A stretch of 64,000 bases of DNA, taken from contig OZ020254.1 of the NCBI GenBank assembly GCA_963971285.1, forward strand, positions 2,294,001 to 2,358,000, written 5' to 3'. The position numbers were made by a program, and so were the translations under genes. Positions within the stretch are counted from its first letter, which is position 1. The number at the start of each line of letters is the position of its first letter. Shown piece after piece: positions 11,371 through 41,633 of the stretch. This stretch comes from Astropecten irregularis (Eukaryota > Echinodermata > Asteroidea > Paxillosida > Astropectinidae). The notes under the pieces were generated by a model. The model did not search any database. It was not told the DNA's origin and was given only the letters and a program-made list of their open reading frames with translations.

Positions 11371-12177
11371 CTTTTTTTTCAGTCGACTTCCGGCCATTTC
11401 CTTGACGTGGAACATCTTACTCCCATACAGAGGCAGCTGCTTACAAAACTCCACGTACATCTGTTTTGCCCTTGAATTGCTCTTGGTAGGGTCCTGCAGA
11501 TCCACAAGAGCACCGGAATAGCACTGAAAGCACCTCCTAGCGGATTTCTGGACGGCTCGGATGTTTGTGTAGCCATGCGGCAAGCATTTCTTCAAATTCT
11601 CCAGGCACACTTTGTCCGCGCCGTACTCTGGAATGTTACTGGAGTGCGTAACGATTATGTTGGGGCCAGCGTCCGATATAATTCCCTCTGTCCGTGGTAA
11701 TGGGCCGTCACTGTCATCAGCATCGGTATCGGGGACAGCTCTGAAGGACCCGGAAGTCTTGAGGTTGTGGTATCTGTCATCCAAGCAAGGAGTGTGATGC
11801 TGAAGCTGATGTTGTTGGTGAGGGGGAGGATGTTGCTGCCAGAAAAGGTGCTGACCGAGATGGAGCTGCCCATCGATGATAGGACTCGGACGGCCCGTCA
11901 TTGTCATCAGCCCGTCCTCCAGGATAAAATCGTCGATGATCGGGGTCTCCACATCCTCTGACGGGAGATCCAGCGTGACTGTCGGCAGGCCCATGGCTGG
12001 CTGGTTTGTGATGACAGCCGGCTGGTGGCGGAGAGGGTAGCGTCGGGTCTGGTTCTGGTGTTCCGTGGTCGGGACCTTGTCCTGGCCTGATGACTCAGCC
12101 AGCAGTTGGAGGGCGGCTAGTTTCACTGCATCTTCCTGGCTGCACGGGAGGTGTTCTTCAATGATGTCTCGATTCAA
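11371..12177 (-). CDS. Ankyrin/FERM-type gene, exon 8 (FERM F2 lobe)
   Basis: Internal exon of 269 codons, residues 1355-1623. Acceptor GTTCTTGCAG|TTG and donor AAAAAAAG|GTGAGT are phase 0. Two blocks look like the helical F2 lobe of FERM domains. LNRDIIEEHLPCSQEDAVKL with AALQLLAES matches the start of F2. RAKQMYVEFCKQLPLYGSKM with FHVKE matches the end (the Leu-Pro-x-Tyr-Gly signature). About 150-200 residues of His/Gln/Asp/Pro-rich, probably disordered sequence split the two. No F1 (ubiquitin-like) lobe is evident before it, since exon 7 runs straight in (DLDQLYQK-LNRDIIEEHL). FERM domains bind membrane lipids or cytoplasmic tails. The gene continues beyond the donor, so the protein is incomplete here. 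Confidence 0.86.
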
Positions 12178-14310
12178 CTGCAAGAACAAAATTTACAAAA
12201 TAAAATAAATACTACAAAACACACAGCTTACAATTCCACAATGAACTTCAGAAAGAGAACAAACTGAAACAGACCACCAATAATTGACTGCTGTCCCTGA
12301 AATTATCTTCAGTTTTGGTTTTAAAGCACTTCCTCCAAAACCATAATGAGCTGACATTGGTTCCTGGATATGTCCACAACAAATTCCATCTTGATAAAGA
12401 AACAACATTTTAAAATGAGACATCAAAGCACTTTTTTAGACAAAAAAAAAAAATATGACAAACATGTCTAGGCTGTGACATTCCTCCGTCCACCCAAAAA
12501 TCAAACTCGTCCCACGGACGAATTAAGGCGACGTGACAATTCCCCCAACTCTCTAGTCTACCCTCGCTGATTCCAACCTGACCAACTGACATTCATGACA
12601 AACAATCTCTCCCGACAAAAATATAGAAAAAATTCCGACAGCATACAAGGAACTGAAACCGATCCATTCGAGGTTTGACTGAGAGAAGAGCTGACAACCA
12701 AGTAAATAATACAGACAGGTGTACATGCAGCCAACAAGTCAATCTAGCTCTCTCTAGCTTGCTCTGGCAAAGGCAGTCGTACAGGCCGGGTCTTCTGATG
12801 AAAAAAAAGGCGCAAGTTTATTGCAACCTAACACCTCCGGGGCTAATGAGAAGATATTACAACCGATTTTTTGTCACCCCTTGAGGCAGATGCAACACAC
12901 ACACGCACAGACTCGCATCTATAACCTTTCAGGAGTTGTCGGTCTATGATCAAATCCTCGGGCATGTGTGAGCATGTTTCTTGGGAGCCCTACTTTGAGA
13001 ATGTGGTCAGTTCCATGACGGGAATTTGAGAAAGATAGAAAGCGAGAGACTGAGGGTAGAGACCTAGTCAATTGTTTCATCTCCAATGTCTTTGGGAAAT
13101 GGCATGGGCAAGGCCCGGGAGGGGAAGGGAAATTAAACTTGGGGAGGGGGAACCTTGGTAGGGGACCCGGGAAGGGGAACAGGAAAGACAGAACCGGGGA
13201 AGGGGGTCTGTACATTTCATGATCTGGTTGTGTTAATTACTGTTTTGTATTTTTGGCAGATTTCATGTGATTTCCTTTTAAATTTATCAAGCACTATAAA
13301 TGAGAAAATGATAAATTATGCAAGTTATGTAATCATAATTCTGAATAAAAGCATTTCCTGCCAAAAAAAATTATAACAACTTTTACAATAATAAAAATAA
13401 ATTACTTGAATATTAAAATTAAAATGAAATAAAAACTAAAACAAAAAGACCACAAAAATTCAATCAAAAAGCATTCTTGCCAATTCCTAAATTGTTTTCA
13501 ATATTCCCACAAGATTTTTCCCTCCCCTTTTTCATTTCCAGCCACCTCCCCTCCCCTCCCATCCCTCACAAATTAAGAAATCTGGCCTGAAGCCAAGCTG
13601 TTGACATACATGTATATCAATTAAAAGTACTAATAACCTCAAGAAGGGAATGTTTAAGTGATCCAAGTGAGTTGGTATGTATCCAACAATGTACTTTTCA
13701 AAGAAAATGATTATATGTTGATTCTCATGACCATGATACACTACCCCAGACCTCCTACCCCCACCCCCCTCCTCCTTCCTCCTTCAGTGCTCTCAGCTGT
13801 GGACGAAAAACATGTGACGTAGAATTCCTTCTTGAGAGAAATAACCAAGCAAAGAGTCACTGATTGAGACTTATATGCAGCAAACGTGTCCGACAGACAC
13901 ATTTCACACAATACACCTCAATATGCCCTGCAGTGCATTACCGGAGTTCCAACAATACCAGGCAGGACAGACGAACCAGTCAGATCATTGCTCCACCATC
14001 ATACACGCAGCCTCATCATGTCAGCCCCACAGTCATCATTCCACGAGATGATGATTAAGATTTAAAAAAAAAACTATTCATCGGCATGCATTAAATACCG
14101 TTACGTCAATCTGTTTGAACCCAACCCTGTTTTGTCTGCGTTCACATATCCCCGTTTCCTCTTTCACTTTGACAAAAACGGAGCTTTAAAAAAACAAACA
14201 ATACGTTCACCATCTATAACAAAAGCTCGATCACAATAAAGAACATACATAAGACAAACAAATAACAAGTACAACTACTGGTAAATCCAGAGTGTTACTT
14301 TCTCATTGTA

Positions 14311-14684
14311 TTATTGGTATAATACATGATTGGTAAAGGTCACAGAACATCACTCACACTTTTTCTGATCCAGCATGTCGATAAAAAATAATAAGCCGGT
14401 GAAAATTTGGGCTTAATCGGACATCTGATGAGTCATGAGAAAATAGCAAAAACCTGACTCAATGTTTCTTATAAAACATCAAGAAAGCTTTTGATCTTGT
14501 CCCAAAATGATCAAAACTGTTTTCAGCCTTTGTTTTAAATACATACCGTATAAATACACTATTTCAGGTGGAAACATTTTAACAGTATGTTTCTACCAGC
14601 ATCATCTTCATACCCAGAAAGTTATACATAAATCTGTGAAATGTTTTGTACGGGTATGTTACCAATCCTGTACTGTACCTTTAA
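14311..14684 (-). mobile_element. TTAA-MITE family B, copy B1
   Basis: Ends GGTATAATACATGATTGGTA and TTACCAATCCTGTACTGTAC plus CTTTAA form terminal inverted repeats. It begins with the family B block GGTAAAGGTCACAGAACA. The half nearest the right end (CATTTTAACAGTATGTTTCT) is shared with family A. Confidence 0.7.
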
Positions 14685-15021
14685 CATCTGTGTCTTGCTG
14701 TCTTGAGTGCAGCAAAGGGTAGGTTGAGGCAGGCAATCTGTTGTGACGCCACAGGCATTTTAAGTTAGACTTTCAGTTGGTTTTATGTACATGTACAGTT
14801 TGCATTTTGACCCCAAATGTATTAGTACAAGAACATACTGTAGCATGTATGTTTTTGTGTTGTAACCTTATTGCAGGTATCAAGATAAGGGCATGTTTAA
14901 TAACATACACTGCTTGTGCTTCTGAGAAAATGGGGTAAAAGTCTACCAGTACCACAGGAAGTATGCAACTCATGAGGGAGCTGTGTGTATTGTGCGGCTT
15001 TGTAGTAGGTACCATATCATA

Positions 15022-15296
15022 AGTTCTAGAGCCAGTTTTTTTTTGGGGGGGGGGAGGGTAGAAGAGCCATGATTTTTTTTTTTGGTGGTGGGGGCTGGGA
15101 GAGGCACTTATTTTGGGGGGCTAGAACCTTCTTTTAACACTAGCTTCGGTAAATGATGTCTTATTAGGATCGACTTGCATGCATGCACCTATAGCCTACA
15201 CAACACATTTTTCATTTAATTGGTGCAAAATAACTGAAAAGATCCAGGATTTTTCAGGATTTTTTTTGGGGTGGGGGGGAGGGGGGCTCAAGCCTT
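15022..15296. repeat. Dispersed repeat family L, copy 2
   Basis: Second copy of the 2891-3167 repeat: same order of GTTCTAGAGCCA, AGAAGAGCCA, CACCTATAGCCTACACAAC and ATAACTGAAAAGATCCAGGA, with expanded G runs. Confidence 0.6.
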
Positions 15297-15848
15297 TTAT
15301 TCCGAAACTAATTAACAGTATTGCAAGCACGCGTCACCAGCTGTAACCAGTATGATTTGTGTTTGAAATGTACTTGTGTATTAAACACTCAAACTGTTTT
15401 GTGGTGTAGGCTATACATGTATCACGCATGGACTGCATTGCACAACCAAATCCAGCAGGAGTTTAGTGAATGTGCAGGTGACTAATAAGAGGTATTTCGG
15501 GGTCAGACAGCTTGAATATCACGGTCACCAAACAGCTGAGACAAACGGAGGCAAACTGTGTGCTCTTTCTGTGGTAACATGCCTTCTCTGTGAACCTCAA
15601 GATGTTATCAGCTGTATACTGGTATAAAGAATGACTCTGCAGTGTCAAGGCTAGGTCTGTTGACCGCAAGCTCAAACTTATTGGCTAAACACTCCATGTG
15701 GCACCCTCCCCCACCCCCCACAGGGTGAATATTAGTTTAGGACTATATCTTCATAAATTTTGACATATTTCACAATTCATGCCATGGTAAATGTTGGATC
15801 GGCTGGATATGCCTGGAAGGTTAACTGTAATGGCCGGGCTGCAAGCCA

Positions 15849-16105
15849 AGTATACTCCGATCCGACGGCGCGACCATGGAGGTAGGAAACACCCGCCATT
15901 ACTGGTGTGTCCCCGCCCGTATTTTGTCAGGCAACAAAAGAATTCACGTCAGCCGCACTCTATATTGCAGGGTGTACGTCCCCTAGTGGGACATACACCC
16001 TGCAATTATAGAGTTAGGCAGAGTGTAAATTCTGTTGTTGCCGGACAAAAGGCATACGGGGACACTCCAGTAATGGTGGACAGTATATCGGATCGGTCTA
16101 TACTT
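15849..16105. mobile_element. Foldback element family I, copy 1
   Basis: About 255 bp, almost wholly self-complementary. Outer arms carry CCGATCCGA and its inverse TCGGATCGG. Inner arms GCAGGGTGTACGTCCC and GGGACATACACCCTGC meet near 15985. By eye about 88% identical to 49132-49387. No coding capacity; a MITE by structure. Confidence 0.8.
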
Positions 16106-16345
16106 GTGCTAAATATGTACTGTTCATTAAATATCATGTAAATTTTCTACATTGAATTATTCAAAGACAATTTCTTCCGAAAGCAGTTACTGCAAAAATT
16201 GTTTACAGAACTTTTCAAAATTAGGGAGGATCAAGCAAAAGTGGAAATATATTTAAGTGAACTAGTATGCATCTTTGATAGCTTGCTGGGTTTACATGTG
16301 TAAATTGTACAATTTTGTCAACACACGGATGATGGTCCATCTCTG

Positions 16346-16359
16346 CCGCCCTCTTGTGG
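16346..16359. promoter_or_regulatory. CTCF-like motif
   Basis: CCGCCCTCTTGTGG matches the CTCF core (reverse form of CCASYAGRKGGCRS) except at one position. Motif match only; no evidence of binding. Confidence 0.25.
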
Positions 16360-17213
16360 TGCTGCGCACATCGGTTGATTGAAATCACAAATTGAACCAA
16401 GACGAACCAGAACAGTCCAGAAGACAGCATGTCATAAATTATGTAAAATAAAATCAGACATTGGCTTGACCTTTAACCTCCATACGCCCTGACCTTTGTG
16501 CCGCTATTCATCCTAGCCGCTCCTCAGAAACTGAGCACGCTGCAGATCAGTGTTGGTGCTCACGTACAGGAGCTCTGCGGACAAATAAACTTGCCAACTC
16601 CCAACTTCGCAGCGAAGTCTGAATCAAATCGATTCAACGGACAACGCCGGCCTTCATTCCTCGAAATTTCATTGTCATTTTGACTTCCCCTGTTCTTACT
16701 CTAACACAGATGTAATGAAGTCTTTGTTTTGGCGACAATGCCTAGTTCAATTGAGATACGACACAGGTGTGGTACGTTGAATACATGTAATAGCAAGCAG
16801 TGAAACCACAGGTTCGCATGTCAGCATGGTCAACTATTGGTTTCAGTGGTGGGATTTTTGCAGGATATGGACGAGATTCAGGGTCTGTGCAAACGATTAT
16901 AATACATCCTGTGGAAGTATAGATAGATTACAAACTTGTAATAAAAACTGTACAATTTCATGGGAATGTACCACGGAGCATGACCTCCAATTGTCAACTT
17001 ACATTTCAAGCATTGAATATCTGAATTTTGTGATATTCAAGTCATATTAAGCACAAAGAATTTGAACATTGAAAAATGATTTGTGTTTTTTGAGAAATGA
17101 ATTAAAATGCAAATGAAAATTTGCCCATGCTTCCAAAAAAGAAAAGAAACAATATTAAATTGTTAACAATGGTTACACCAGGAATTAAGGAAATGTGATT
17201 TTAAATCCATGAT

Positions 17214-17306
17214 CTGGGGCCAATTTTATAGAGATGCTTAGCACAAAACATTGCTTAGCACAAAAATGGCTTGCCCAATAAAACAAAACCACCATTAAAA
17301 ATAAAA
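17214..17306. mobile_element. MITE family F, partial copy
   Basis: Left end only: GGGGCCAATTTTATAGAGAT, then GCTTAGCACAAAA twice. The inverted right end is absent nearby. Confidence 0.6.
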
Positions 17307-19385
17307 TAGTTTTAAGGCCTTTTTCACGACTGAGAGCTACATTACTCCTGCCACATGGTCTCCTAATCTTTTCAGTGAGGCAGAGCAGCACCAATATTGA
17401 TTGACTTTAATTCATTTGTTTTATTAACCAAAACCTATAACAAAATTGCCAAACACAGGATGGCAGAGGCCCAATCATGCTACAAGTGTCTTATCCTGAA
17501 TAGCCTGACATGGCATCTTAATGAATCTTCACTTTACTATTAAAATCTAAGACAGACAAACGCAGAAAATAATATAATAGACCTGTTGCCAACACTGCAA
17601 AAGTGCAATGCAATTGACCATGCATGTAACATGAATCACAGTGTAAAGAGGGACACTCATTTGAAATTGACCTGTATTTGAAAATATTCGAAATTTCGAA
17701 GTACATTTAATCTACAGTACCTAAAAAGAAATTAAACATTTATGATTTTCAACGTCTTGTCTTGAAAACTTGAACGCCTTTTAAACTTGCAGAGCAGTTT
17801 ATTACTTGTATTGGCCTTTTAAACTTGTTCAATATCATTTTTTTCTAAATAAAAGGGTATAGCACGTGTTCGTAACTACTGGTACATGTATGTGTGTGTC
17901 TCCACAGGGAAATTCTAAAGGTGTATAAGTCTCCACAGTAAGGTTTTCACAAAAATGATATTTGGAATTAACTCAAAAAGGAGGAATTTTCATCCTGGTG
18001 TACTTATTTTGTTGCACTAAAAGAGAAGTATTTTACAGTGTATATATTATTCAGGACGTTCAATAGAAATTTCAACCCAGGCAAGTGATTCTGGTTGAAA
18101 TGAAAGTGATGCTCTTCGGAGACTGCGTTCATTAGTTCACAAGAACAAAGCCATGTCTCCACAAGGATGCAAATTCCAGTACGTGCGTGCGTATGGTTAC
18201 ACGTTTGTGTACATCATGTGTCACATGCCAGTTGTGCAACTCACAAGGTCGGCAAATGAAATTAGCCCGAACCACACTGTACATTCGTGACAGAGGCAAT
18301 ACAATGTCAATATCCAGACAAGTTGATTTAAAATACCATTCCACAATTCAGCACAGCCATCTGGGCCAGGCACTTACATTGTATAAACTTGGGCAATGAA
18401 TTCAATGTCAACAAAATAACTGAATTGGAAAGGGAAGAGATGTGTGAGACAGGGCATTAAATTAACCCTAACGCCCCCAGGCCCTTTAAACTCCAACATT
18501 ATGTTTTGTTGGGATCTGTTAGGCTGAGGAGGGTACAGTTGTTGGAATTTGCTAAGATTGATACCATGTGTAAATGATGTTTATTTTTGCATAGGGCCTT
18601 TTGTACAGTGTCAGCCAAATCCCAACAGTAGACAACTGTTGGAACTTGATGAGCTGTGTACTGTTGTTATAGAGTAATCTGTTGGAGTATACATGTAACA
18701 GGTTGAGTACAGTGGACATTACCTGACACTCCAGGCTGTTGGAGTGTGTTAGGCTGAGAAAGGTATTGAGTACAAATGTCTAGTTAACCCTAACTGCACA
18801 CAACGACACAAATTCCAACACCAGGACAGTGTGGTATTCTTTAAAGATGCACTGCCTGCCTGTGTCTTCTATATGAAGATTACTGAGTACAATCATCTCC
18901 TTCACTCTCTTGAGTTTATACAAAAAACTTAAAACTCATTTTAAGATTGTATATTAAATTATTAAGGCTATGTGGAAATTAACGGTTTTTGATTCATGCT
19001 GTCTTACACCTGTGATGAGTTGTGTTATTTCATGTATGTCTGTCAAATTTGTCACATTATTAATTAGTTCTCTGCAAAGAGCAACAAAATTCCTCGACTA
19101 CATTTTGTTGCATTGTACAGGATTCTTAACCCTGGGAGGATGGGGGGGGTTGTAGTTGGTCACCTTGGTTGGCTAGTGACTGCCGGAAGCTGACCGCTGA
19201 GTGGGAGGATCGCATACATGTCCAATTTTGCAAGTAGAAACAAACATGTGACATACGTTTATACTTAAATAGCTAATTCGTCGTCAGAAGTACGTAGAGA
19301 ATTGTTGCTTACTGTTAAACTGCGAGCTATGAAATTGAGCCCAAGTGTTTGTAGTGAATGTTGATTAGTTAATAATACGGCTTAC

Positions 19386-19916
19386 CTTCTGGTAGAGCTG
19401 GTCTAAGTCCTCCCCGTGCACTATGCTGGATTTCTTCACCAAGGCAGCGGCAAGGCAGCCGACACTTTGCAGGGCACTGACCGACGAGCAACTGGAGCCC
19501 TGTGAGTTCAGGGAGGCATTCCGCTTAAATCTACTGAGGGCGCCAGTCCAGGCTGACCGACCGCCCGTCCGAGAGAAGCTGGATCCGACGGAGACCTCGT
19601 CATCCAGGTCGGCAGAGGCAAACCGCATGAGACCCCCGCCACCTCCTCCTCCAAGGCTCTCCGTGGAGGAGATGCTAGGGTTGTGCTGGGGAAAGTCTTG
19701 GTGTTGGAGCGAGTGGGGCTTGTCCGGGGCCTTCTTGAGTCGGGGCAGTGACTCAGAGGTTGCAAAGAACGTTTGGATCTTTTTTATGAGCGGCTGGAAG
19801 CGGTCGCTGAGAGGTGGAAGACGTCTGATTAGGCGGGAGGCTTCCCGGCGCAGGTAGAGGTTGTAGTGGAAATCTTCGGGAATGGTGTCCAACCATCTCA
19901 TGAGCATCTGAAGAAT
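19386..19916 (-). CDS. Ankyrin/FERM-type gene, exon 7 (RasGEF-N-like helices)
   Basis: Internal exon of 177 codons, residues 1178-1354. Acceptor GTGAAACAG|ATT and donor CAGAAG|GTAAGC are phase 0. The join with exon 6 reads TILE-ILQMLMRWLDTIPEDF. The pattern ILQMLMRWLDTIPEDFHYN, then LRREASRLIRRL, resembles the last helices of RasGEF N-terminal domains (Leu..Leu..Trp-Leu/Val....Asp-Phe). This is pattern similarity, not a search result. A disordered part follows, with a Gly run at about 1266-1272 and many Ser residues. No catalytic RasGEF (CDC25) domain is visible in the window. Confidence 0.84.
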
Positions 19917-20323
19917 CTGTTTCACAGAAGAATTTTAGAATTTAGTAGAAGAAAAAACTCGGCCACAACTGTAAGGCTAGAATTCCTTATGAAAGGGAAC
20001 CCATAAGTTCAGAACATAATTTGGTAAATTATGACATTTCTTATTTACTCAGCTAGCGCTGAAATTCAGTGCTAATCCTGTAAGCATAGAAATGATAATA
20101 AATTGAGCCTAAACTTTTGCGGTAAGCAAAGTCATGAAACTATACCCAGATGGCTGAGTTTCCACTTGGATACATGTAATCAATATTCTGCCGGGAGTCA
20201 AGACAAGTCTGTAATCCACTCATTTTGTGTCATAAGGCATTCAATTTATAGATAGATAGGTAACTTGTCAATTGCAGCTTGCTTGTAGTCTGGATGTACG
20301 CATGAATGTAAAGTTCTGCAAAC
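19917..20323. other. Intron 6 (407 bp)
   Basis: Short intron between exons 6 and 7; no repeats seen. Confidence 0.75.
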
Positions 20324-20749
20324 CTCAAGGATAGTGCACATTATGCTCATGTGGGTGGCTACTTTATTGAAAAGTTTTATTGTCCAAAACAGACACTTGT
20401 CACAGTGCTGCAGCCTGCTTTGGGGCAACTCTGTAATTTGAGAAAATGACAAAGCAAGCAGCAATTGATGACAGGACAACGAAAGGAAGAAGAACTCTCT
20501 TGCCTTGGACTGCAGTTCAACGTTCTCTTCCCTGGCCGATATCTCGTCATCCCGGGTCAAACTCTGGATGCAGCACAGGGACGATAGCAGGGCCTGCTCC
20601 AACAATCGCAGGAGGATGACGGGGTGAACGCTCATGGGTAGGGTCTCCAGCAAGTTGTCCTGTACGAGACAGAACCGACATCGGACGGCAGGCTGACATC
20701 GTGGGCCCTTCGTTACGTTCCTGGTGTTGAGCTGGGACTCTGGCGTGGT
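20324..20749 (-). CDS. Ankyrin/FERM-type gene, exon 6
   Basis: Internal exon, residues 1036-1177. Acceptor CTTTGTCAG|ACC and donor CTTGAG|GTTTGC are phase 0. The peptide is Leu- and Cys-rich and strongly helical (PVILLRLLEQALLSSLCCIQ, then FFFLSLSCHQLLLALSFSQI and LFWTIKLFNKVATHMSIMCT). That fits an all-alpha domain. Because the next exon resembles the end of a RasGEF N-terminal domain, this could be the first part of that domain, but I see no diagnostic motif. Intron 6 is only 407 bp. Confidence 0.8.
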
Positions 20750-23255
20750 CTGACAAAGCAATGATTGAATGAAAACAAATTTAGAATCCCAGACCTTAAC
20801 TTATATCAGTCATGTCAAATGTGTACTCATCTATATTTGCGAGCTGTTCCGTGGATATCGTAAGCTTCGTCCTTTGACTAAAATCCTAGTCATGCGATCA
20901 CAAAGGAAGTTGATTACAATAAAAATATTTAAAATTTATGCAATTTATTGCAATTTTAAGATCCTAACTTGGAAGTCTAGGTATGACAGAATAAACAGCT
21001 GCATGGTGAAATTTTCGGTTCAGCTGTACTGTGCCACCACAACATGAACACTTAAAATCATGACACCATAAAAATTCAGGGAAGATTTCCTCTGTTACTT
21101 AGTGTCGAGTGACAGACAACAGAATAAACAATGTTAACATCTTAATAATAATAATGTGACGACTTACCATGTACACTTAGACCGTTAAAATCTATGTTTT
21201 ACCTGAGGGAATACCGGAAGGCATTTGACTTAAAAAAACACTTGAAGTTGGAGAGAATTAGAATAGGAAGGCCGATCATCTAGCAGAATCTTTCTCAAAA
21301 GTCAAAACGCTACTTTGCTTTGAGAAATTTATAATAGAATTAGAAAACATTTAGAATTCTTCAGTTCAGTCCCATAGCCTTTGTGCACGAGGTGTCGATT
21401 GTTGTCCATGTATTTAAATCTTTCAGTTTTGTGTTTTAAATCCTTACAAGCAACGCAAAATTTGAACATAAACAGTTTATTAATGACTGAAACTGTTAGA
21501 AAACTCACGGCTGAATGTCGAATGGACTCCACATGGCACCACAAGATACATACAATACAGTGAGAAAGTTACCTACACTCGTGCACGATAAAAAGCATGG
21601 AAAGTGTGTGCGAAATCGTGGCACCCGACTACTTTTGATTTCAACGAGCGCGAATTTATGGGGATTCCCCTAAAAAGAACACCAACACGTGGTTCTTGTC
21701 ACGTGTGTTTGTAAGACTTTTTAAACTATCTTTGGAAGGAATTGTCCAATATTTTTTTTATGTCAATGTAAACATTAATTCTTCGTAGTATAATCCATAG
21801 TAAAAAAAAATGTAATGTATTTGGACATACTGACGATAATTAAAACAAAATACATAGGCCCTTACTGCGATAATCTAATTTTCTAGGGAAACCGAACAGC
21901 GCCCTCTAACGATAGGCGAAATGCAGTCTACACCAAGTTCCTTTACAAAGGTTACCGTAGCAAGTTTTGCAGATAACCTTGAAATATAATGACTAGATCA
22001 ATCTCTTATGATTATTATGATTTCCCCTTGGTGGTCTCGTAGTTAAATTCGACAGCTTTGTTATTTTCGGCATGCAGCATTGGACATTCTAGTTGGCAAA
22101 AAATGTTCTCCTTTAGTAGGCCTTTGAGGTTCGGTGGGATTTTTTTGTTCAAGCGGCAGTTTAAGCCGAACAGTGATTTTATCATGTCAGCCAATTTGAT
22201 ATACATTCTGTTGGGCGTCTATGGACATTTACGAAACGGCGGCTTAGGCTCAGGCTCAGGCTCCAGCTCTGTCATCCATATACTGAAAATATAAGTTGTG
22301 GTGTTTCATTGAAGCTGAAGTTGTGTTTTCCTTTTCAAACCAGAGAATCTACTTCAGAACCGCAGCCAAAAGCCTCTATTTTGATACCAATTATTTCAGA
22401 ATGGATTCACGAAATGGAGCCGGAGTCTGAGACGGAGCCTGAGCCTCCGTTTCGTAAACGCCCAATGACTCCATCCAGTCTACGAATAGAAACTCTTTGG
22501 TATCTGGTGGCATTAATTGCTCTGTGCCGTGCCGATTTCTTGTCACCTATGATGTCAGCCGGCCCTGCCTTCTATGCATAATTATGTTATGCAAAAATGA
22601 ACTGCCGTACTTGCGTATTATTTTAGTTCCCTCATGCGAGTTTTTACTTGTTTCGTTCGCTGCTTGTGTTCAAGGCTGAACTATTATGTTTTAAAATTAC
22701 AATTTATTTTGTAATTGTGGTGGTGCACGAAGCATTACATCCCGCCCAAATATCACAATGGTGTATAATATCACATCCCTGTCAAAATTATTTAAAAGAA
22801 ATTTAAATTAATTTCATTTTGTAAATTGACATCAATGAATCAATCAACTTAAAATCGTGGATTTGTTTTCAGTGTGACTGGTATGTCTCAATACAGTCAC
22901 TTAGATGGCTGAAGTCTCGGAGAAAAAGATTTCACTAGTATAAGGTTTGTAAAGGACGGTAGCTATAGGTACAAGTTGAGGTACTAGGGTGCAAGCAGTG
23001 ACATTTTGTGTTGATTATGGGAACTACCTGGGGACTGCGTCCCTTTTACTGGTGAAGTAGTCGTACATGACAGCGCCTGGGGAATCTGTTCGGTAAGAGC
23101 CAAGGAAATTGTTAGAAATCCAGACTAAAATAAGTCAAGGATCACTCAACTTCAACAACCAAATGTAACAGATTCCATTATTCATGAAGAGTGGTTATAA
23201 CAAACGAAGACCCCTTTTTCTCGGCATATAAAATGGTCAAGCGATCATCACTCAC
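20750..23255. other. Intron 5 (2.5 kb)
   Basis: Contains the D1 foldback element at 22213-22464. Otherwise A+T-rich with no gene seen. Confidence 0.65.
22213..22464 (+). mobile_element. Foldback element family D, copy D1
   Basis: The left arm TTTACGAAACGGCGGCTTAG and the right arm CTGAGCCTCCGTTTCGTAAA are inverted repeats. The interior (GAATCTACTTCAGAACCGCA, GCCTCTATTTTGATACC) is shared with 26157-26302, 26990-27221 and 32050-32302. A 9-bp stretch interrupts the very end of the left arm. Confidence 0.78.
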
Positions 23256-23476
23256 GGGATTGCACAGGCAGTGTCCATCGGCGCCTCCGGTACCTTGGTT
23301 AGTACCGATCGCCATAGAGACCAGGGACTCGAGTGTCGCTTGGGACATCCTGGGCGGCAGCAGACCGCCGTGGTTCCGCCAGTCCGTATCCGCCGCCGTT
23401 TCATGGTCATGACGATGATGTATCGTTCCGCTCGGACTCCCAGGCCACGATGTCACTTTAGCAGAGCGAACTTCAG
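23256..23476 (-). CDS. Ankyrin/FERM-type gene, exon 5
   Basis: Internal exon, residues 962-1035. A strong pyrimidine-rich acceptor (TCTCTCTCGACGCAG|CT) supplies the last two bases of an Ala codon. The donor is CCC|GTGAGTG, phase 0. The peptide is His/Asp/Gly-rich and probably disordered at first (GTIHHRHDHETAADTDWRNH), then carries one helix (RMSQATLESLVSMAIGTNQG). No motif is recognised. It is supported by splice sites and phase rather than by similarity. Confidence 0.68.
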
Positions 23477-31750: not shown

Positions 31751-32049
31751 CTACGTTGGTGGTGTCCCAAATAGTCAATTATCTTTGTTCGTTTGGCAGT
31801 CAGAAGCTATGAGCGTTACTATTTGGTATTGGTATTTGTTCCGGATGATACACCATACATTCAAGAGCGAGATAGAACTAATAACCAGCCTTGTTTTTTT
31901 AATTAAGCCACTAGCTCCCTCATTATCATATAAGTCAATGCAAGAAGCGTCAGATCTATATTGGCGCGAAAACCTCATTACATAATTAAGTATACAATCG
32001 ATGCAGTGTATAAAATGTTCGTCTGCTATAAATTAAAATGAAACATTGG

Positions 32050-32302
32050 GGTTTACGAAACGGATGCTCAGGCTCCATCTCAGGCCCCAGCTCAATTTCG
32101 TGAATCCATTCTTAAATAACGGGTATCATTGAAAATAGAGGCTTTTGGCTGCGATTCGGAAGTAGATTCTCTGGTTTGAAAAGGAAAATAGAGATCCAGC
32201 TTCAATGAAAAACCACAACCTATATTTTCAGCTTATATTCAACCTATATAGATGTCAGAGCTGGAGCATGAGTCTGATCCTATGCCTCCGTTTCGAAAAG
32301 GC
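32050..32302 (-). mobile_element. Foldback element family D, copy D4
   Basis: Ends GTTTACGAAACGGATGCTCA and TATGCCTCCGTTTCGAAAAG; interior in reverse orientation (ATAGAGGCTTTTGGCTGCGA). Confidence 0.75.
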
Positions 32303-32539
32303 GCAAAGACTGTCTGAACCTTTTTATATGGACTATAGGTTTCCATTAAAAATAATGAAAAGAAGAAAAACTTTAAACTATATTTACATATTCATATTAA
32401 TAACCACACAAAGACTGTGGTATTTTGTATAGATAATTATAGATAATTAATTAGAGGTGTTACGTAACAAACTCAGCCACTTTGACAATTTCAATGTATC
32501 GTCTTGACGTTCCGATCATAATTATGGAGAAGTCTTTCT

Positions 32540-32590
32540 CAGAGGCTAAATTGAGAAAGATCCTGCCAGGTTCGAAACGTCAGACCATTC
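32540..32590. repeat. Repeat family K, fragment
   Basis: Only the arm AGAAAGATCCTGCCAGGTTC plus GAAACGTCAG is recognisable. Confidence 0.4.
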
Positions 32591-32692
32591 GAACGAGTCA
32601 GCAGAAGATAGGCATAGAGTTATAGATCAAGTAGACGATAAATATAAGGTTAGTGCAAAGCTTGTTTTATGGTATGGAAAAGAAAATCCTAC

Positions 32693-33616
32693 CTGATCAC
32701 AAGTTGGTTCCAGCACTGCCAGTAGTCTCCACATATATTCCGGGCGCATAAGGGCTCGTCTTGTGGACGGCAAGCTAGAGATGGTCAGCAGAGCTTTGGC
32801 CGCAAGTCGCTGGGCCTGCTTGACCCGCGACAGCCCCATCTCGGATCTACACCTCTTGGGCGACAATCTGTCGTTGTCGCTGGACGACGACGACGAGTCG
32901 CCGCTGGAGTCCGACTTGGACACGCTCTGGAGGCAATCCAGGAGCATGTCGACGTCCACGGTGGTCAAGAGACGCACCGCGCTGTGCGAGGAAGGTTGGG
33001 ACGAGGCCGGCTTCGTCTTGGCACTCCGGCCGATGCTCCGGGCGAACTTGCCCAGCTTGGTATGCACGCTCTTCCTCAGCACCAGTCTCTTGGCGTAGAA
33101 GGAGTTGGAGCTGTAGCGAAAACTTGGCTTCCTTGAGAGTCCGGGCGATGAGGTCTTGGTCTTGTGGCCCTCCACCTTCATCCGGAATCGATCCAGGTTA
33201 GGGCTGGTCGGGACAGAGTGGGTCTCGCTCCCCTTGGGGTTCGACTGGCTTCCGCTGACGGCAAGATTCGTGCCACTTTGCCCGTTCACGCTGCTTCCCC
33301 TTCGATGCGACGGGGTGCGTTTATGAGTCCCACTGTCCGTAACCTGCTGCTGATGGTGGCCCTTCTTTGGGCTGCCCGCGACATGACAAGATGTCCTACT
33401 CTCCTCCATCTTCAGGTGAAGCTTCAAAACGGTGTTGACGACGCTCAGCGCGGCGTCTCGGACGCAGTCACCACACCGGACGAACTGCAGAGCGATGCGG
33501 AACAACTTGCCCAGTCGCTCTCCTCGGATGCCCTCCAACGGGCCAATGCCATGGTGATTCCCGTCAGCATCAACATCCTCCAAGGCTCCCTCAGTACCAG
33601 CTGGCGCCGTACACGC
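32693..33616 (-). CDS. Ankyrin/FERM-type gene, exon 3
   Basis: Internal exon of 308 codons, residues 562-869. Acceptor AACACTTAG|GCG and donor GATCAG|GTAGGA are both phase 0. The first 55 residues include a helical segment (GKLFRIALQFVRCGDCVRDA). A long basic, Ser/Thr-rich and probably disordered region follows, with a Ser run (DSSGDSSSSSSDN). The exon ends in another helical pair (AQRLAAKALLTISSLPSTRR and MWRLLAVLEPTCDQ) that continues directly into exon 4. I infer helical-repeat segments split by a disordered loop. The reverse strand is also open for 161 codons; I read that as a shadow of base composition. Confidence 0.82.
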
Positions 33617-34354
33617 CTAAGTGTTCAAAAGAGCGCAACGGCAAGATAAAACCGCGGTTATTTATTAAAACTTCGCTTCAAATTAAACCATTCCAAATTG
33701 AGAAACCAAACCTGGAATCTAAATCGATTTCTTTGGTACTAACTACATTCTCCTTATGGGTGTTACCGCGTTTCCAACGAGGCCTTCGCACCAAAACGTC
33801 TGAGACTCCCGATGGCTTTTACAAACTACAGGCTTCGCAGTACGCCCAGACGTTATTAACATCAACTATATTCAGATGTCCTTACTGCTATTATAAAAAG
33901 AAAAGGTTTAGGCATCAGCCAACAGTGTTAATTTATATTGCTTCGCAGCAAAATCAACCTTATGCAGTACCGGTCTACAATGATGGTTTATATGTATCAG
34001 ACCGTCGCATATTCAAACTCAATCGTTGTTACATCCCGAACGCTCGGCTTGATTTAGCCAGAAACGCGCGTGTCCATGAGCTTAAATCATACCATTTGAA
34101 TGTTTGTTTTTTCATTGGAACGCGCCATAGAAACCAATTCACATTGCTTCAATCAAAAGCCAGTCTATGTGACCAAACAAAAAAAAAAGAGAGAAAAGAA
34201 ACCAGACAAGCCCTCCGTTATTAAAATCGGCAGAAGGGAGTTTTTTAATCTGCAAATATTTGGTTCCGTTGAAACGGAAGAGGGCATCAAAGTGACATTG
34301 TTTGATCAACTCGCTGGCAACCAGCGCGCGACACCTGTCGGATATTTTTTTTCT

Positions 34355-34710
34355 TTAAAAGGTAATATCATACTTTGGTATTAATCAAAGAAATACAGAT
34401 TCATTGGCAAAAATATCAAGACAGATACAGTAACAGTCATCTGTGAAAATTTCAGTCCCATACGGTGCCCACTTTTTGAGAAAACAGTGAAAAACGGCCA
34501 CAGTATTTCTTAAGTCTGTTCTCTTTTATTTCTTATCTTTTAAAAGATCAAAAAGATTTTCGGTCGTTGTTTTACTAATTTCTGGATGGATACACCATTT
34601 CAGTTTTAACGGTATGTTTCTACCACCACCATCTTCATACCCTGTAAGTTATAGATAAATCTGTGAAGATTTCTGTTTTGGTTTCTTACCAAAGTATGTA
34701 CTACCTTTAA
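34355..34710 (-). mobile_element. TTAA-MITE family A, copy A8
   Basis: Reverse copy: AAAGGTAATATCATACTTTG at the left, CAAAGTATGTACTACCTTTA at the right. It includes the inner palindrome around ATCTTTTAAAAGAT. Confidence 0.82.
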
Positions 34711-35213
34711 AGGCGACGCTTGTGCCGAATGGCTGTGGTGGAGTGGAGGTTTGGTAAGTCGCAGGCCAGTTGGCACGGAAGTTGTGCAGTACTGATGCAA
34801 AGTTATCTCATCGGTTTGAGTACTACTCAGGTAAGGCTCTCATAATTTCAAGGGCGATGAGGGGAAATTTAATTTCCATACACGAAAACTAAAGGACCAG
34901 ACGTTTTGAGCGCGAAATGTATGTAGTCGAGTAGATGATTGAATTTTTTGTCACTCCAATTTTTCACTGAACTGGCTATTTTAATAGCAAATGATTTTAT
35001 CCCAAATTTTGTATCCCAAAGGTCTATTACACCCCATAATGAATACATCACTATATAATTGCCTCTTTTTTGGCACCGAGCTGAATATGATCTAATGTTG
35101 ATTTAGAAGAACGCGTAAACAAATTGCAAACACAATGCATGATACAATATTAGGACAATGGATTGCACGTCTGCTTATGTAATAGTGGACGTGTGTAATC
35201 GATCAGGGGCCAA

Positions 35214-35800
35214 TTTCAAAGAGCTGCTTAGCACAAAAAAAATGCTAAGCATGACATTTCTGCCTTAAAGGTAATATCATACTTTGGTTTTAGTCAAAGA
35301 AATACAGATTCATGGGCAAAAATATCAAGGACGATACAATAAAAGTCATCTGTGAAAATTTCAGTCCCATACGGTGCCTACTTTTTGAGAAAACAGTGAA
35401 AAACGGCCATAGTATTTCTTAAGTCTTTTCTCTTTTATTTTAGATCAAAAAGATTTTCGGTCGTTGTTTTACTCATTTCTGGATAAATACACCATTTCAG
35501 GCGGAAACATTTTAACAGTATGTTTCTACCACCACCATCTGTATACCCTGTGAGTTATACGTAAATCTGTGAACATTTCTGTTTTGGTGTCTTACCAAAG
35601 TATGATACTACCTTTAATAAAAATAGGATTAACAACCAACATTCCTTTTGTTGTATATCGCTTGCAATTGTTCTTTGGCTGTTGTTCGCTTACCATGAAT
35701 ATCAAATGGAATTTTCAATGGAGGGTTTGTTTTATTGGGCAAGCTATTTTTGTGCTAAGCATTTTTTTGTACTAAGCATCTCTATGAAATTGGCCCCAGG
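35214..35800. mobile_element. MITE family F, copy F3, split by a nested insertion
   Basis: Left end CAGGGGCCAATTTCAAAGAG at 35214, right end CTCTATGAAATTGGCCCCAG at about 35780-35799. Copy A9 of family A sits at 35265-35617, so F3 was there first. Confidence 0.82.
35265..35617 (-). mobile_element. TTAA-MITE family A, copy A9 (nested in F3)
   Basis: Both TTAA ends are intact (TTAAAGGTAATATCATACTT and GTATGATACTACCTTTAA). Removing it and one TTAA restores a continuous F element, which supports TTAA as the target site. Confidence 0.85.
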
Positions 35801-36160
35801 GCCCAATTTCATGGAATCCGTTACCGTTACCAAAAATTATTTGCTTACGGTAGCAGACGTTAAGTTTGGTTAAGGTTCACGGAGAGTTTTCTTTTTGGTA
35901 ACGGAGTGAGCAAGGATTTTCTGCCGATGCTTACGACAAGGCGTTAGCAGAAAATAATCACGGTTAATACCCTAGAAATTTTTCGCTAACCGAAAGTCTT
36001 GCTTACGGATTAAGCCTACATGAAATAGATTTCACGCATACTAGCAGTGCCCGTAAGCACAAAAATAGGCTGTAACGGATTCCGTAAAATAGATTTCACG
36101 CGCAGCAGTGCCCGTTAGCACAAAAATAGGCCGTAATAACGGATTCCATGAAATTGGGCC
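35799..36160. mobile_element. Foldback element family G
   Basis: GGGCCCAATTTCATGGAATC at the left mirrors GATTCCATGAAATTGGGCC at the right, with inner CCGTTACC / GGTAACGG arms and a partly duplicated right arm (GTAACGGATTCCGTAAAATA at 36071). It abuts F3 directly. Confidence 0.75.
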
Positions 36161-36681
36161 AGCCCTCACCCTAAGAATGACTATACAATGAAACAGATCC
36201 ACTGTGCTAATATCTGCGTACACTCTACCTTTAAGGAACATTTCTCCACTGATGTAATAATGTACATAACTAGTCATATACAGACCCCCATCCCCCCGGG
36301 GATTCGATTGCTGCTGGTGGCCAGTGGTGTTTACTTATTTTCACACATCAGCAAATCACACAGAAACTGCCATACGTAATTGCATTTATAATTAAATTCC
36401 ATGCACAGTCGGCCTCATTGTCCATGGAGTTATTAATTGGCGTATACGCGGACAGACATCAGGCCTTGACTGGATGACATGGATCTTGAAATAATTAAAT
36501 GAAAAATAATATCCTTAAAATCAAGCGAAATGAAGGTGTCTGGTGTATAGCAAGCTGACATCACGCGATAAAGTATGACATGGAGGGTGCACGGCCGGCG
36601 TGCGTGACACCGAAGGAAACACGGTTTAGATAGGTTGTCTGAAAATTCTTATGCACCACGAGAGCCTGTGTTTCAAAATAG

Positions 36682-36753
36682 CCAATGAACGATGGAATGC
36701 GGTCACGATGGATGCGGTCACGTGATGGCCAGCCAATAGCGACGTGCCACGTG
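36682..36753. promoter_or_regulatory. E-box / CCAAT cluster in intron 2
   Basis: Two CACGTG E-boxes (36719-36724 and 36748-36753) and two CCAAT boxes (36682-36686 and 36733-36737) within 72 bp, in a locally CpG-richer stretch. On the minus strand this lies just upstream of exon 3's side of the gene and could drive a shorter transcript. Motif evidence only. Confidence 0.3.
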
Positions 36754-37192
36754 TACTGGTCTAACATCGAAATGTACCAAAGTAAGCAAATTTTGTTTTT
36801 AAAGATAAATGCTGGCTGATACAACCGGAATCAGCGATCTTCAGGTTTGCAAGTGCCGTTTCCCCGAACATGGCAGTATTTTGAGAAAGAAACGATTCAC
36901 AAAATGTTGATAACAGAATGATTTGAGCTTGTACATCGATACTTTAATTCGTTTTGATCCTTACGATGTACGTTCTTTGAAAACCTATAAACTCCCTTCA
37001 ATCCTCATGAAAGTTTTGGAGAATTTCGCAGAAGTCAAAGTTTGTTATGCAGCAATAGTCCAGGCGTGGTGACAAATCTTCGTTTAACAACAAACACAAA
37101 ACCAAGATGGTCCAAATGATTTTGATCGTATTGTTACAACTTTCTAGATAATTGTATTCGGCTCTTAGATCAAAGAAAAAAAATAAGCCAAC

Positions 37193-37383
37193 CTGTAGGA
37201 TATTTCGAAGCATCTTGCCGACTCCTACGCCCATCTGTCCGCCTAGGCTGGCAGTCAGGGGCTGGAGTTTGGGAAGGCACACCGGCAGTCGCTCCAAGAG
37301 AAGATGAAGACATTCCCGGTTGGAGGAGAGACGCTGCAGGACTTGGACGCTCCTCTCCGCCGCAAACGTCTCGCAGCAAGCAT
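37193..37383 (-). CDS. Ankyrin/FERM-type gene, exon 2
   Basis: Internal exon, residues 498-561. Acceptor TCTTCGTAG|AT completes the Asp codon begun by exon 1. Donor CTACAG|GTTGGC ends in phase 0. The peptide (ETFAAERSVQVLQRLSSNRE, then a Leu-rich stretch with CLHLLLERLP) reads as paired amphipathic helices of ARM/HEAT type. That is an inference from pattern only. Both frame and phase fit the exons on either side, which is the main evidence that it is real. Confidence 0.8.
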
Positions 37384-37439
37384 CTACGAAGATTGGGAAT
37401 GAAAACAAAATGGAGTGGGACCGGGGTCATGTTCTTTAT

Positions 37440-37599
37440 GTTTTAAGAAAAATTGAGTCGAGTTTTCGCTATTTTCTCGTGACTCAGATGTCCGATCGAG
37501 CTCAAATTTTCTCCAGTTTATCATTTCAAGTACATGCTGAATTAGACAAAGTGTGAGTGCTGTTCTGTGACCTTTACCAATCATGTATTATACCTTTGA
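37440..37599. mobile_element. TTAA-MITE family B, partial copy B2
   Basis: Matches the family B end CTGTGACCTTTACCAATCAT then GTATTATACCTTTGAA, and the GACTCAGATGTCCGATCGAG interior. The other half is missing. Confidence 0.6.
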
Positions 37600-38183
37600 A
37601 ACATGTCTTCGCAAGGTACAGCCGCGATCTCTACCAGGCTAATGATATAATGAATAATAGAGATAAAGCATTAGAGATGGAATCACTTCAGTAGCGTCCA
37701 CATTGTGATTGTATAATACGCAACATAGTCGGCGTGGTGCGTTCCTCAGTGTGGTTTAAAACCTAATCAACGTTTCTTCTCCACTTGTTGATTAACTCAA
37801 TCTGCATTTTACACCATTTCTAGGCATTTTGCCTCTCTGTATTTCCTGGGAATTACGGTCCAGTTGGTAAATCACCTTAATGTGCCTCCATTTTTTTGGG
37901 TCTCAATTTCCGTACTCTCCAGGCTCCAGGATTCATTTCCGGAAATTAAATTGTCTAAATTAATTGGATTCACATCGGGGGGATCTACCGATGCTATAAT
38001 TACTGTACAGAACGTCTTCAGGTGCTGCTTTGATTCTGAGGGAAAGTCTCAAAATAGTTCCTGACACTGGTTTGGTTTTTATACGATAAATGTATGAATG
38101 AATATACAAAATATCAGAACCAAAACAGTAAAGTAATGTATATGAAATCAAATTTGCAAACATGACAATGATAATATACAGCA

Positions 38184-38580
38184 CGTCTCAAAAGAACGCA
38201 ACACTTTGTGTCGAGAACCATTATATCAAAATTAAACTGTTTATCACTTCAAGATTCGGATTTATGATACAACCACGTCTTGGCTATCATCGTGCAGAAT
38301 TTGAGCAAAATTGGACCGAAATTGAGGGAAAAAAATAATGACTGAATTATCCCATCCTCAAAAACGAATTTCCATCTTTCTGTCATACACATTATGTGTG
38401 TATTGGCCACTTATTTCAATTGGTGACATGTTCGCCAATTACAGCCCGATTTTGCTTAGATGCTTACATGGCAATAGCCAAGACATGTTTGTATTACATA
38501 TCTGAATATTGAAGTGATAAACGGTTTAATTTTAACATAAATGGTTCCCAACACAGTGTTGCGGTTTTTTGGGGGGGACA
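38184..38580. mobile_element. Foldback element family M
   Basis: Left CAAAAGAACGCAACACTTTG, TCGAGAACCATTATATCAAA and AACTGTTTATCACTTCAA are mirrored at the right by TTGAAGTGATAAACGGTTTA, TAAATGGTTCCCAACACAGT and GTTGCGG. Inner CCACGTCTTGGCTAT / ATAGCCAAGACATG arms. About 390 bp with no coding capacity. Confidence 0.72.
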
Positions 38581-38897
38581 CAAAATATATTTTAGGTGGA
38601 TGAGAACTCGAAAGAAATTGTCACATGGTTATTTTGTCACTGGAATCAAAAGAAAGAGTCTTATTCTTGGATGTATGGATTTGAGTCTTTCAATGATTGT
38701 CACTGACCATGTCAGTATGGCTTCCAGCTTAGTTGTCAGGAAAGTGTCTGAAACATGATGATCACTACATGAAAATAACAGCCAGGTGCTGCATGAAGCG
38801 CTACATCAATCAGCCACAAGCTATACACAAACATACAGCAGCATTCATACAGACTTCGCCTGTCAACGATATACTTGTGTATCAAGGTTCGAAATGT

Positions 38898-39343
38898 ACG
38901 GAGCTCCACAAGTGCCATTCCACTTATCCAGATAACCACATAATTGTATCTTGCCAAGTCGACTTTTGGCGCGGTAAAAGTCGTCTCAATAATTATATGA
39001 ACAAGATGACTTCAAGCAAAAACGAGAAGTCGACTTATCCTTACAATTTATCAGGATAAGTCAACGAAGTGCATCTACTAAAAATCGCCTTATACCTTAA
39101 GTTACCTCGGATTTAGCAAGTCGTTTTTCCAAGGTAAACTTTCAAGACAAGTCGACTTCATTCTTTCAGTATAAAGTCGTCTTGGCGGGATAGATTATCA
39201 GGATATGTAGACTTCGTAAGCCATCTTGCACGGATAATTATTATCTAGATAAGTCTACTTTTAGGGCTTAATAAGTCGACTTGGCGAGAAAAATCATTTG
39301 TATGGTTATCTTGATAAGTGGTATGGCACCCGTGGAGCTCCGT
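38898..39343. mobile_element. Foldback element family N
   Basis: Terminal arms of about 70 bp: ACGGAGCTCCACAAGTGCCA at the left, TGGCACCCGTGGAGCTCCGT at the right. The interior carries the 10-bp palindrome AAGTCGACTT four times (38956, 39027, 39149, 39273). Confidence 0.8.
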
Positions 39344-39794
39344 AAAAATGCTACTCAACGATGTATCTTCCCAATTCAGCCTAAAAATAACAGCGTTGGA
39401 ATTTTGAAGTGCTTTGCTACGAGATGTAAAGGTAAGGCCTACAGGTTTTTTGTTTTAGACCGAAAATTTTCCTGTCAAGAATGAAGTGAATGCAGCTGAT
39501 TTGAAAACAAAACTCCATGAAATGTTGCCTCAGTCTATACCCTGTTAGTTAGCCAATCGGAGTTATTTGTTATCTCAAGTTCCTAACTTCATAAATTTTG
39601 TATTCGTTTTCACTTTGTTATTTTTTCGTGGCAAAAATTTATAACCTTTATAAATTCATCCGATCGAGATTCTTTTGAAATCCTTTTCCCCTATCATCAC
39701 GGGAAATAAACTTAAAGGATTTCGTTGTGGATCGAAAGAGATCTGTACCTAGAATCAACTATCCTGGCAAGCCCCAAACTTCTCTCATTTGCAG

Positions 39795-40093
39795 TGACCA
39801 TTTGTCAGGTTGGCGTAGATGTTCCTTTCTCGCCTTTCACCTCTGGCGGCCTGGGGTTCGAGTCCAGCTCGGTCCACAAGTGGTTTGGGTTTTCAGTCCC
39901 TATCTGATTCTGTGGGTTTTACCCAGAATATTACTCTGGGGTTTTCCTCCCACCTCTAAAACTGTATCTTCTTCTCATGATCGTATTTCCATAAGAGGTT
40001 TCATCAGGCTTTCGAGCTACACAGTGCCTATGGTGCTTTTGAGGAATCCTTGGATTCATAACCAGAAATAGATAATAATAATAATATAATGTG
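39795..40093 (+). mobile_element. tRNA-derived SINE
   Basis: Plus-strand element with a pol III A-box-like CAGGTTGGCGTAGATG (about 39807) and B box GGGGTTCGAGTCC (39853-39865). A body with ACTCTGGGGTTTTCCTCCCA, of a type common in invertebrate SINEs, follows, then an ATA/AAT tail (40070-40090). It ends about 50 bp from the donor of exon 1. Confidence 0.72.
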
Positions 40094-40141
40094 TACAATG
40101 CTATTTCATCATAAAATTCTATTTTCGTAATTCGTCATTAC

Positions 40142-41633
40142 CTTCTTCGATATCGTCCATCGTGTTGGTCCTGGATCTGATGGTTTTCACGGGTTCCGTG
40201 CTAGTACCAGACGTACTGCATGGCTTCGTCTTCTCCACAGGCGATCCGGGAGTCGAGTCAGCCTGTTCAGGGTCGGTCTTGGATGCCGGTTCCTCCCTGG
40301 ATCTTCGCCGTCGGTCCAGCCAGTGCCACAGTCCAAGGCTCATCTTCCGGTTGCGCTTCTCGGCCATCTGGTCCGAGCTGGGTTCCCTCTCCGCGATGGC
40401 CGCCTCCTGCGGGATGCAGACTGTGGCGCACCGGTCCCGGGCGTTGGGGGACCGGGACCGGGCCACCTTGGCCACGAAGCGAGGGAGGGCCAGGAGTCCC
40501 AGGGACACCTTGCGGTTGTCCCGAGCCGAGTTGATCCTCTGCTGCAGAACGTCCTCCTCGGGATCGTCCGGGCTCTTGTCGGGATAGAACACATCCAGGG
40601 TCTCCTGGACGACCTTCTGCTGGAGGACTTCCAGCCCAGGGGCGATGTCCACCGGGCGCTGACCTTTTTTGTCAGCCTTAAATATCCTTGCACCGTGCTC
40701 GATGAAGATGGCGGCGCATTCCCACCTCTCGAGGGGAGATTGAGCGGCCACGTGGAGGGGTGTGGCGCCGTTCTCGTCCTCGATCTCTGGATCCGCGCCG
40801 TATCGGAGGAGAGTCTTGATGACCAGGCAGTTGGCCATGCGTGTGGCCAGATGCAGGGCCGGCTTGACGAACCACTCCCGGACGGAGTTGACCTGGTTGG
40901 TGAAGTACTGCAAACCTTCCGGGTCCGTCCCGTTGGTCTGCCGATTCAGCATCAGGTCGGCCGGTGGGTCCACACCTTCGCAGTTGGGATCCACGCCCCA
41001 CTTGACCAGCAGGCGTACCACCTCGGTGGAGCCGCAGGCGATGGCCAGATGCAAGGCGTTGGAGAAATCGCAGGGCTTGGGCTTGCCGCGGTGAGGTCCA
41101 GGGGAGTCCTCGTGGTTCCTCTCCCAGTTGCTGATGAGAGCCGTGCTCTGGTTCAGCAAAACCTGGACGGTGAGGCTGTCACTCCGAGGTCGGGCCTTCT
41201 TGCTTGCGCCCAGTCCGACCACATCATAGTTGACGTTGAACAGGCTGAAGTGGGCGTGGAGAACCCGCGACACGGTGGCACCATCGTTGAAGAGAATGGC
41301 CATTCGCAAGACGTCTGCGTCCACCATCGGGTTGCCGGACACGGACTGCAGCTGCCTGACCAACAAGGACATGTTGATGGTCAAGGCAGTGATACAGGGA
41401 AGGGTCCTCAAGTTGGACAGGGAGGCTTTGCGAAGTCTGGACGGGAGGTTCCTGGAGTTGAGCAGGGGGCTCCTCAGCTCAGCCCTACTGTCCCCGGACA
41501 GCAGCGCCTTGGGGACGAGGGAGGTCGAGCGGCGATGACTCAGGAGGGTCGGCTGGAGGGAAGCTCGTCGACACGGCAGGTCCTTCGTGGTCGGGTCAAC
41601 TTCGTCAATTCTCATCGTTATGACTTCTACCAT
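40142..41633 (-). CDS. Ankyrin/FERM-type gene, exon 1 (ankyrin repeats)
   Basis: First recognised coding exon, residues 1-497. At least three ankyrin repeats are visible: about 191-217 (SNALHLAIACGSTEVVRLLV), 257-286 (KPALHLATRMANCLVIKTLL) and 288-318 (NGATPLHVAAQ). They are followed by a basic, Ser/Arg-rich tail to 497. Ankyrin repeats bind protein partners; the partner here is unknown. The ATG at 41633 was chosen because an in-frame TGA lies 8 codons upstream (41657-41655). A CAG at 41645-41643 could instead be an acceptor, which would make this an internal exon. The donor is GAAGAAG|GTAATG, leaving one base of the codon finished by exon 2. The exon is strongly G+C-rich compared with its flanks. 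The family is not recognised; only the ankyrin content is certain. Confidence 0.85.

Follow-up and report, generated by a model that had tools for sequence, protein, structure and literature searches.

Eight exons on the minus strand of a 64,000-nucleotide stretch of the genome of the sea star Astropecten irregularis (contig OZ020254.1, 2294001-2358000; hereafter, the window) probably form the 5' half of one gene, some 101 kb long and predicted to encode phospholipase C epsilon (PLC epsilon) with an N-terminal ankyrin-FERM extension. The product, of about 3,440 residues, most likely would contain ankyrin repeats, a helical segment, a RasGEF-N-like part, FERM lobes F2 and F3, a CDC25 domain, PH-like and EF-hand-like regions, the phospholipase X and Y domains, a C2 domain, and two RA domains, in that order. 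An original prediction, made from the letters of the window alone, had joined eight exons in phase, from 41633 to 11371, into a large protein with ankyrin repeats, helical regions and a FERM lobe in succession. Exon chaining with hand-set ends bore out both the in-phase joining and the order of the parts, and the same chain was found to run on well beyond the window.

The region covered consisted of the window with 100 kb to its left and 40 kb to its right, or 204 kb, with no N. Positions are given as w, the position on this contig (C18) minus 2294000, negative values lying left of the window. Exons were located by a codon-usage scan, an exon list and an exon-chaining script, followed by hand edits; the start of exon 1, the end of exon 4 (26653, where the script chain had 26682) and the start of exon 7 (19916, not 19907) were set by hand. 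Genome-wide match counts refer to the whole 475.7-Mb assembly. The human PLCE1 N-terminus used as a query is approximate.

A search for a CDC25 (RasGEF) domain to the left of the window had been advised, and the domain was found there. In that direction lies one exon (the F3 exon of Table 1); beyond it, starting at w-32247, closely spaced exons continue to a stop codon at about w-59382. The exon at w-32247, the next coding exon after F3 and in compatible phase, opens a CDC25/RasGEF domain (PF00617, E 9e-21 in the joined exons) at a distance of about 44 kb from exon 8; RasGEF domains are common in this genome, with 31 matches, one of them at the present locus. The joined exons also matched the Pfam families for EF-hand-like (8.1e-10), PI-PLC-X (1.7e-45), PI-PLC-Y (9.1e-30) and C2 (2.4e-8) regions, and the RA family (PF00788, 1e-13) in two C-terminal stretches. 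A PH-like exon, w-37398 to -38103, has a single match in the genome at E<=10, and both of the two PDB chains that it matched at E<=1 are PLCE1 (9ax5 and 9b13, 1.4e-26). Because this exon matches PLCE1 chains alone in the PDB, the second half of the predicted gene is that of PLC epsilon. Additionally, SSHNTYL is encoded in a 105-nt exon (w-45539 to -45643) that was absent from the script chain, and SIENHCS within the chain model; these we take to be the catalytic histidine motifs of the phospholipase X domain. The approximate human PLCE1 sequence matched the locus through its PH-like part at 8e-27 and through three pieces of CDC25 at 4e-12, 3e-9 and 6e-4, whereas its residues 1-508 matched nothing at E<=10 when both strands of the 204 kb were searched. 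A vertebrate-type N-terminus is not a defining feature of the PLC epsilon enzyme core.

The window exons thus most likely encode the N-terminal half of PLC epsilon rather than a free-standing ankyrin-FERM protein. The latter, exemplified by KRIT1, was considered and rejected, as the chain continues into CDC25 and phospholipase domains and the best FERM matches are to talin and myosin VII. Whether the protein might be an orthologue of a known family was answered in part: its second half is PLC epsilon, but the ankyrin-FERM front is in no family description that was found.

The FERM F2 lobe of the original prediction was confirmed by a FERM_M (PF00373) match in exon 8 above the family cut-off (E 1.2e-12), which runs across an insert, about 150 residues long and lying inside this one exon, and becomes 8.2e-11 when the insert is removed. 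When the end of exon 7, exon 8 without the insert, and the F3 exon were joined and compared with the PDB at E<=10, 28 of 44 matches, including the 26 best, were FERM proteins, headed by talin-1 (3.6e-4) and myosin-VIIb (5.1e-4) and including talin-2, myosin-VIIa and PTPN21. The remaining 16 were pyruvate carboxylases and ABCE1, at E 0.58 or worse. The talin alignments start seven residues ahead of the exon 7/8 junction, and three alignments (two talin, one myosin-VIIb) extend 34-38 residues beyond the junction between exon 8 and the F3 exon. Since the talin and myosin-VIIb alignments cross this junction, F2 very likely continues into F3 across a 26.6-kb intron. For the F1 lobe no FERM_N match was obtained, and the interval between exons 7 and 8 has just three candidates of 13-38 nt.

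The predicted ankyrin repeats were likewise recovered (Pfam E 2.8e-16), all in exon 1. This exon has a single match in the assembly at E<=1e-6; in NCBIfam it retrieved just ankyrin-bearing and other families, far under their cut-offs, and the FERM piece had no NCBIfam match. The exons for the RasGEF-N-like (REM-like) and FERM parts gave three matches at their own locus and one weak place on contig C28 (E 1.38). An ARM/HEAT label given earlier to the segment between the ankyrin repeats and the REM-like part was not borne out: no Pfam family was matched at E<=5, and in the PDB at E<=10 there were two matches, both to Rrs1 (0.051 and 0.28), with no ARM/HEAT protein. Its helical character was judged by eye.

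The ankyrin-FERM and PLC epsilon halves quite probably constitute one gene. The F3 exon leaves phase 1, and among the three phases the CDC25 exon is open in phase 1 alone, with no methionine ahead of the domain in that frame. In the 16,680 bp between them no coding-like stretch was detected; 98 stop-free stretches of at least 40 codons were present, the best with a codon score of 1.1. A higher-penalty chaining run passed from exon 8 to the F3 exon to CDC25 without intervening exons. Taken whole, starting at exon 1, the chain has 36 exons and 3,404 codons with one stop, at its end, and by arithmetic the added 105-nt exon brings it to 37 exons and 3,439 codons. These phases and the lack of other coding-like stretches in the gap, read in the DNA of one genome, suggest a single transcript spanning both halves. 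In the same gap, three near-copies of a 41-codon stretch (AQPEFTKQITKASLVL...) lie a few kb apart on the minus strand (w-20287 to -20409, w-24821 to -24943 and w-28391 to -28513), in what looks like a repeated unit.

Several observations weigh against this interpretation. The strongest of the same exons served as the training set for the codon scores, and so these rank coding potential without proving it. The donor of the F3 exon is imperfect (TCA/GTAAGT, score 1.6), and a phase match at one junction occurs by chance one time in three. With its donor threshold set more strictly, at 2.5, the first chaining run gave a broken chain in which the F3 and CDC25 exons were both skipped, and in a lower-penalty run exon 8 and F3 were separated by two weak exons. 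The F3 exon alone had no Pfam match at E<=10 and four PDB matches, none to a FERM protein; for F3, the joined F2-F3 piece matched just a PH-like family in Pfam, at 0.061, below the cut-off. An AlphaFold single-sequence model of the exon places strands and a final helix in F3 order, but at a pLDDT of 46, and of the 292 matches that Foldseek gave for this low-confidence model at E<=10, which are not meaningful, none reached 0.001 (the best, at 0.10, being an initiation factor, with talin F3 ranking fourth at 0.49). The helix pair earlier likened to the end of a RasGEF N-terminal domain also fared unevenly. It does stand ahead of CDC25, but PF00618 on the joined exons reached E 0.032 and 0.048 (14-15 bits, with a cut-off of 28.3), and none of the 10 matches listed in a six-frame search of the genome for this family was at the ankyrin-FERM locus. 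The label gains weight because a CDC25 domain is present downstream, to the left of the window, and the product may have a RasGEF-N (REM) fold and function in this part.

The locus might instead be divided into two tandem genes, in which case an ankyrin-REM-FERM scaffold would end in the F3 exon and PLC epsilon would start in a short undetected exon of the 16.7-kb gap. If the F3 exon were unspliced, its frame would meet a stop after two more codons (TAG following ...SPLSK); the gap has 22 AATAAA sites, although this is about the level given by AT-rich DNA; and human PLCE1 has a different N-terminus. However, the CDC25 exon starts at a phase-1 acceptor without an in-frame methionine and thus must be preceded by another coding exon, whereas the gap shows none of note, and a scaffold with REM-like helices yet no CDC25 would be odd. 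Such a division is rather improbable. Two promoters at one locus, giving a long form with the ankyrin-FERM front and a short form of PLC epsilon in the manner of mammalian PLCE1 splice variants that differ at one end, would find space for a second start in the 16.7-kb intron, but no candidate first exon was seen there; this arrangement is unlikely, and it would be compatible with a single long gene rather than exclusive of it. Equally compatible is the prospect, with chances about evenly balanced, that PLC epsilon ordinarily carries this front among echinoderms or many invertebrates and that just its description is lacking. Each of the parts has a single clear location in the genome and lies in long open exons. 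That proposal concerns the distribution of the front and not its structure.

Within the extended PLC epsilon gene, the eight window exons (Table 1) total 1563 codons in the preferred model. The 1623 codons given in the original prediction were reproduced exactly by extending exon 6 to a GT at 20324, but that extension was rejected for its weak donor (score -0.9) and for added codons that look intronic. Preferred instead is a GC-AG donor at 20504 (AAG/GCAAGA), with intron-like sequence beyond. The gene model has two GC-type donors, this one and w-45286 (AAG/GCAAGC). Weak splice sites include the exon 4 donor (AAG/GTTGTT, -1.8) and the exon 3 acceptor (-0.8). Script exons at 64646-64526, 54444-54371 and 25996-25941, placed in both chaining runs, were dropped by hand as chance, as were 9062-8705, w-5244 to -5332 and w-55374 to -55481, placed in the lower-penalty run only. 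To the right of the window, a candidate exon at w69484-69074 on the minus strand is open, with an ACCATGG start and a strong donor in phase 0, and perhaps is the true first exon, joining exon 1 at 41642 (also phase 0). The script placed two weak exons between it and exon 1; it matched no Pfam family and had one PDB match, at E 1, with none better. Translation may start either at the ATG of exon 1 or in the upstream exon.

Table 1. Predicted exons and domain features of the 5' half of the gene (positions in w; negative values lie left of the window).
Feature	Position	Strand	Basis and remarks
Exon 1 (ankyrin exon)	40142..41633	-	ATG at 41633, preceded by an in-frame stop; with an additional upstream exon, acceptor at 41642
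Ankyrin repeats	40641..41072	-	Pfam Ank and ankyrin chains in PDB; extent from PDB alignments
Exon 2, helical segment	37193..37383	-	Without family match
Exon 3, helical segment with Ser-rich middle	32693..33616	-	Without family match
Exon 4, helical segment	26653..26929	-	Exon chain; weak donor
Exon 5	23256..23476	-	Exon chain
Exon 6	20504..20749	-	GC-AG donor preferred; RasGEF_N-like match begins in last residues
Exon 7, RasGEF_N-like helices, low-complexity linker, start of F2 lobe	19386..19916	-	PF00618 below cut-off; talin alignments
Exon 8, FERM F2 lobe and first F3 strand	11371..12177	-	FERM_M; talin-1
Insert in F2 lobe	11602..12075 (approximate limits)	-	Spanned by FERM_M match; partly rich in His, Gln and Pro
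F3 exon	w-15266 to -15566	-	Codon-usage scan; probably extends FERM lobe into F3

Elsewhere in the region, repetitive DNA at 8316-9123 of the window is open in three minus-strand frames and reads as Cys/Pro/Leu-rich repeats. A coding-like stretch at w-99554 to -99754 on the minus strand resembles the start of a RhoBTB-type GTPase and is likely a neighboring gene. The mitochondrial contig of 16,335 bp reads by eye, in its translated frames, as COX1-ND4L-COX2-ATP6-COX3-ND3-ND4-ND5-ND6(-)-CYTB, ND1 and ND2 lying on the opposite strand, and its COX1 contains 10 internal TGA codons. Among echinoderm mitochondria, a gene order with the ND1-ND2 block inverted in this way is that of sea stars. Two further COX1 matches were noted: a 552-residue frame without TGA on contig C131 (102,890 bp), perhaps of bacterial origin (a companion or a contaminant), and a frame on C25 (14 Mb) that contains seven TGA codons and is perhaps a nuclear copy of mitochondrial DNA.

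The CDC25 domain of mammalian PLC epsilon loads Rap1; once Rap1 or Ras has been loaded, it associates with the RA domains and PIP2 hydrolysis increases (PMC7427993, PMC12195575). By analogy with that enzyme, the sea-star CDC25 domain, steadied by the upstream REM-like helices, could load a Rap or Ras GTPase, which would then bind the RA domains and switch on PIP2 hydrolysis. The ankyrin repeats and the talin-like F2-F3 pair would hold the enzyme at a membrane or an adhesion site, where this loading would occur, with F2 binding acidic lipid, F3 possibly the tail of a membrane protein, and the ankyrin repeats serving as a protein handle. Local anchoring is the simplest working. FERM binding might also shift the geometry of REM and CDC25, as do the RA-type modules of Epac and PDZ-GEF.

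The front of the sea-star protein provides a concrete hypothesis for the PLC epsilon N-terminal region, namely anchoring at adhesion sites or receptor tails, which is testable in mammalian cells as well as in the eggs of echinoderms. A further question on which it bears is how one chain came to combine a lipase with a Rap exchange factor. It is offered tentatively that PLC epsilon may have begun as a cortex-anchored enzyme, a single chain that united a receptor scaffold (ankyrin-FERM), an exchange factor (REM-FERM-CDC25) and a lipase and so linked adhesion directly to the loading of Rap and the release of calcium, and that vertebrates lost or replaced the front. Such a loss or replacement would account for the difficulty of assigning the mammalian N-terminus. 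The human PLCE1 N-terminus used here matched no Pfam family better than E 0.22. The 836 residues preceding the PH domain of PLCE1 are described as highly conserved and essentially uncharacterized except for CDC25 (PMC7427993). Portions of a 2025 review of PLC epsilon list CDC25, PH, EF, X-Y, C2 and RA domains, and the words FERM and ankyrin are absent from those portions (PMC12195575). Among the open-access matches listed, judged by titles and the openings of abstracts, ankyrin or FERM modules in PLC epsilon were unreported, subscription papers and protein databases falling outside this scope.

In comparison with known systems, the FERM region probably shares with the FERM domains of talin and myosin VII the sequence continuity of F2 and F3, whereas the sea-star protein has no visible F1, carries an insert in F2 and has very different neighbors. 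KRIT1 has a Nudix domain and NPxY motifs ahead of its ankyrin repeats and F1-F2-F3 lobes, and thus also places ankyrin repeats upstream of FERM lobes. In the sea-star protein, by contrast, REM-like helices lie between the two and CDC25 and phospholipase domains come after, and the 44 matches that the F2-F3 piece had in the PDB include no KRIT1 chain. Epac and PDZ-GEF have the order REM, RA-type module and CDC25, similarly with a ligand-binding module between a REM-like region and CDC25; in the sea-star protein that module would be the pair of FERM lobes F2 and F3, and REM is a weak label there. With PLC epsilon of rat and human (PLCE1) the sea-star protein shares the CDC25, PH-like, EF-hand-like, X, Y and C2 regions and two RA stretches in the same order, together with both histidine motifs, but in the sea star ankyrin repeats, REM-like helices and FERM F2-F3 lobes precede CDC25.

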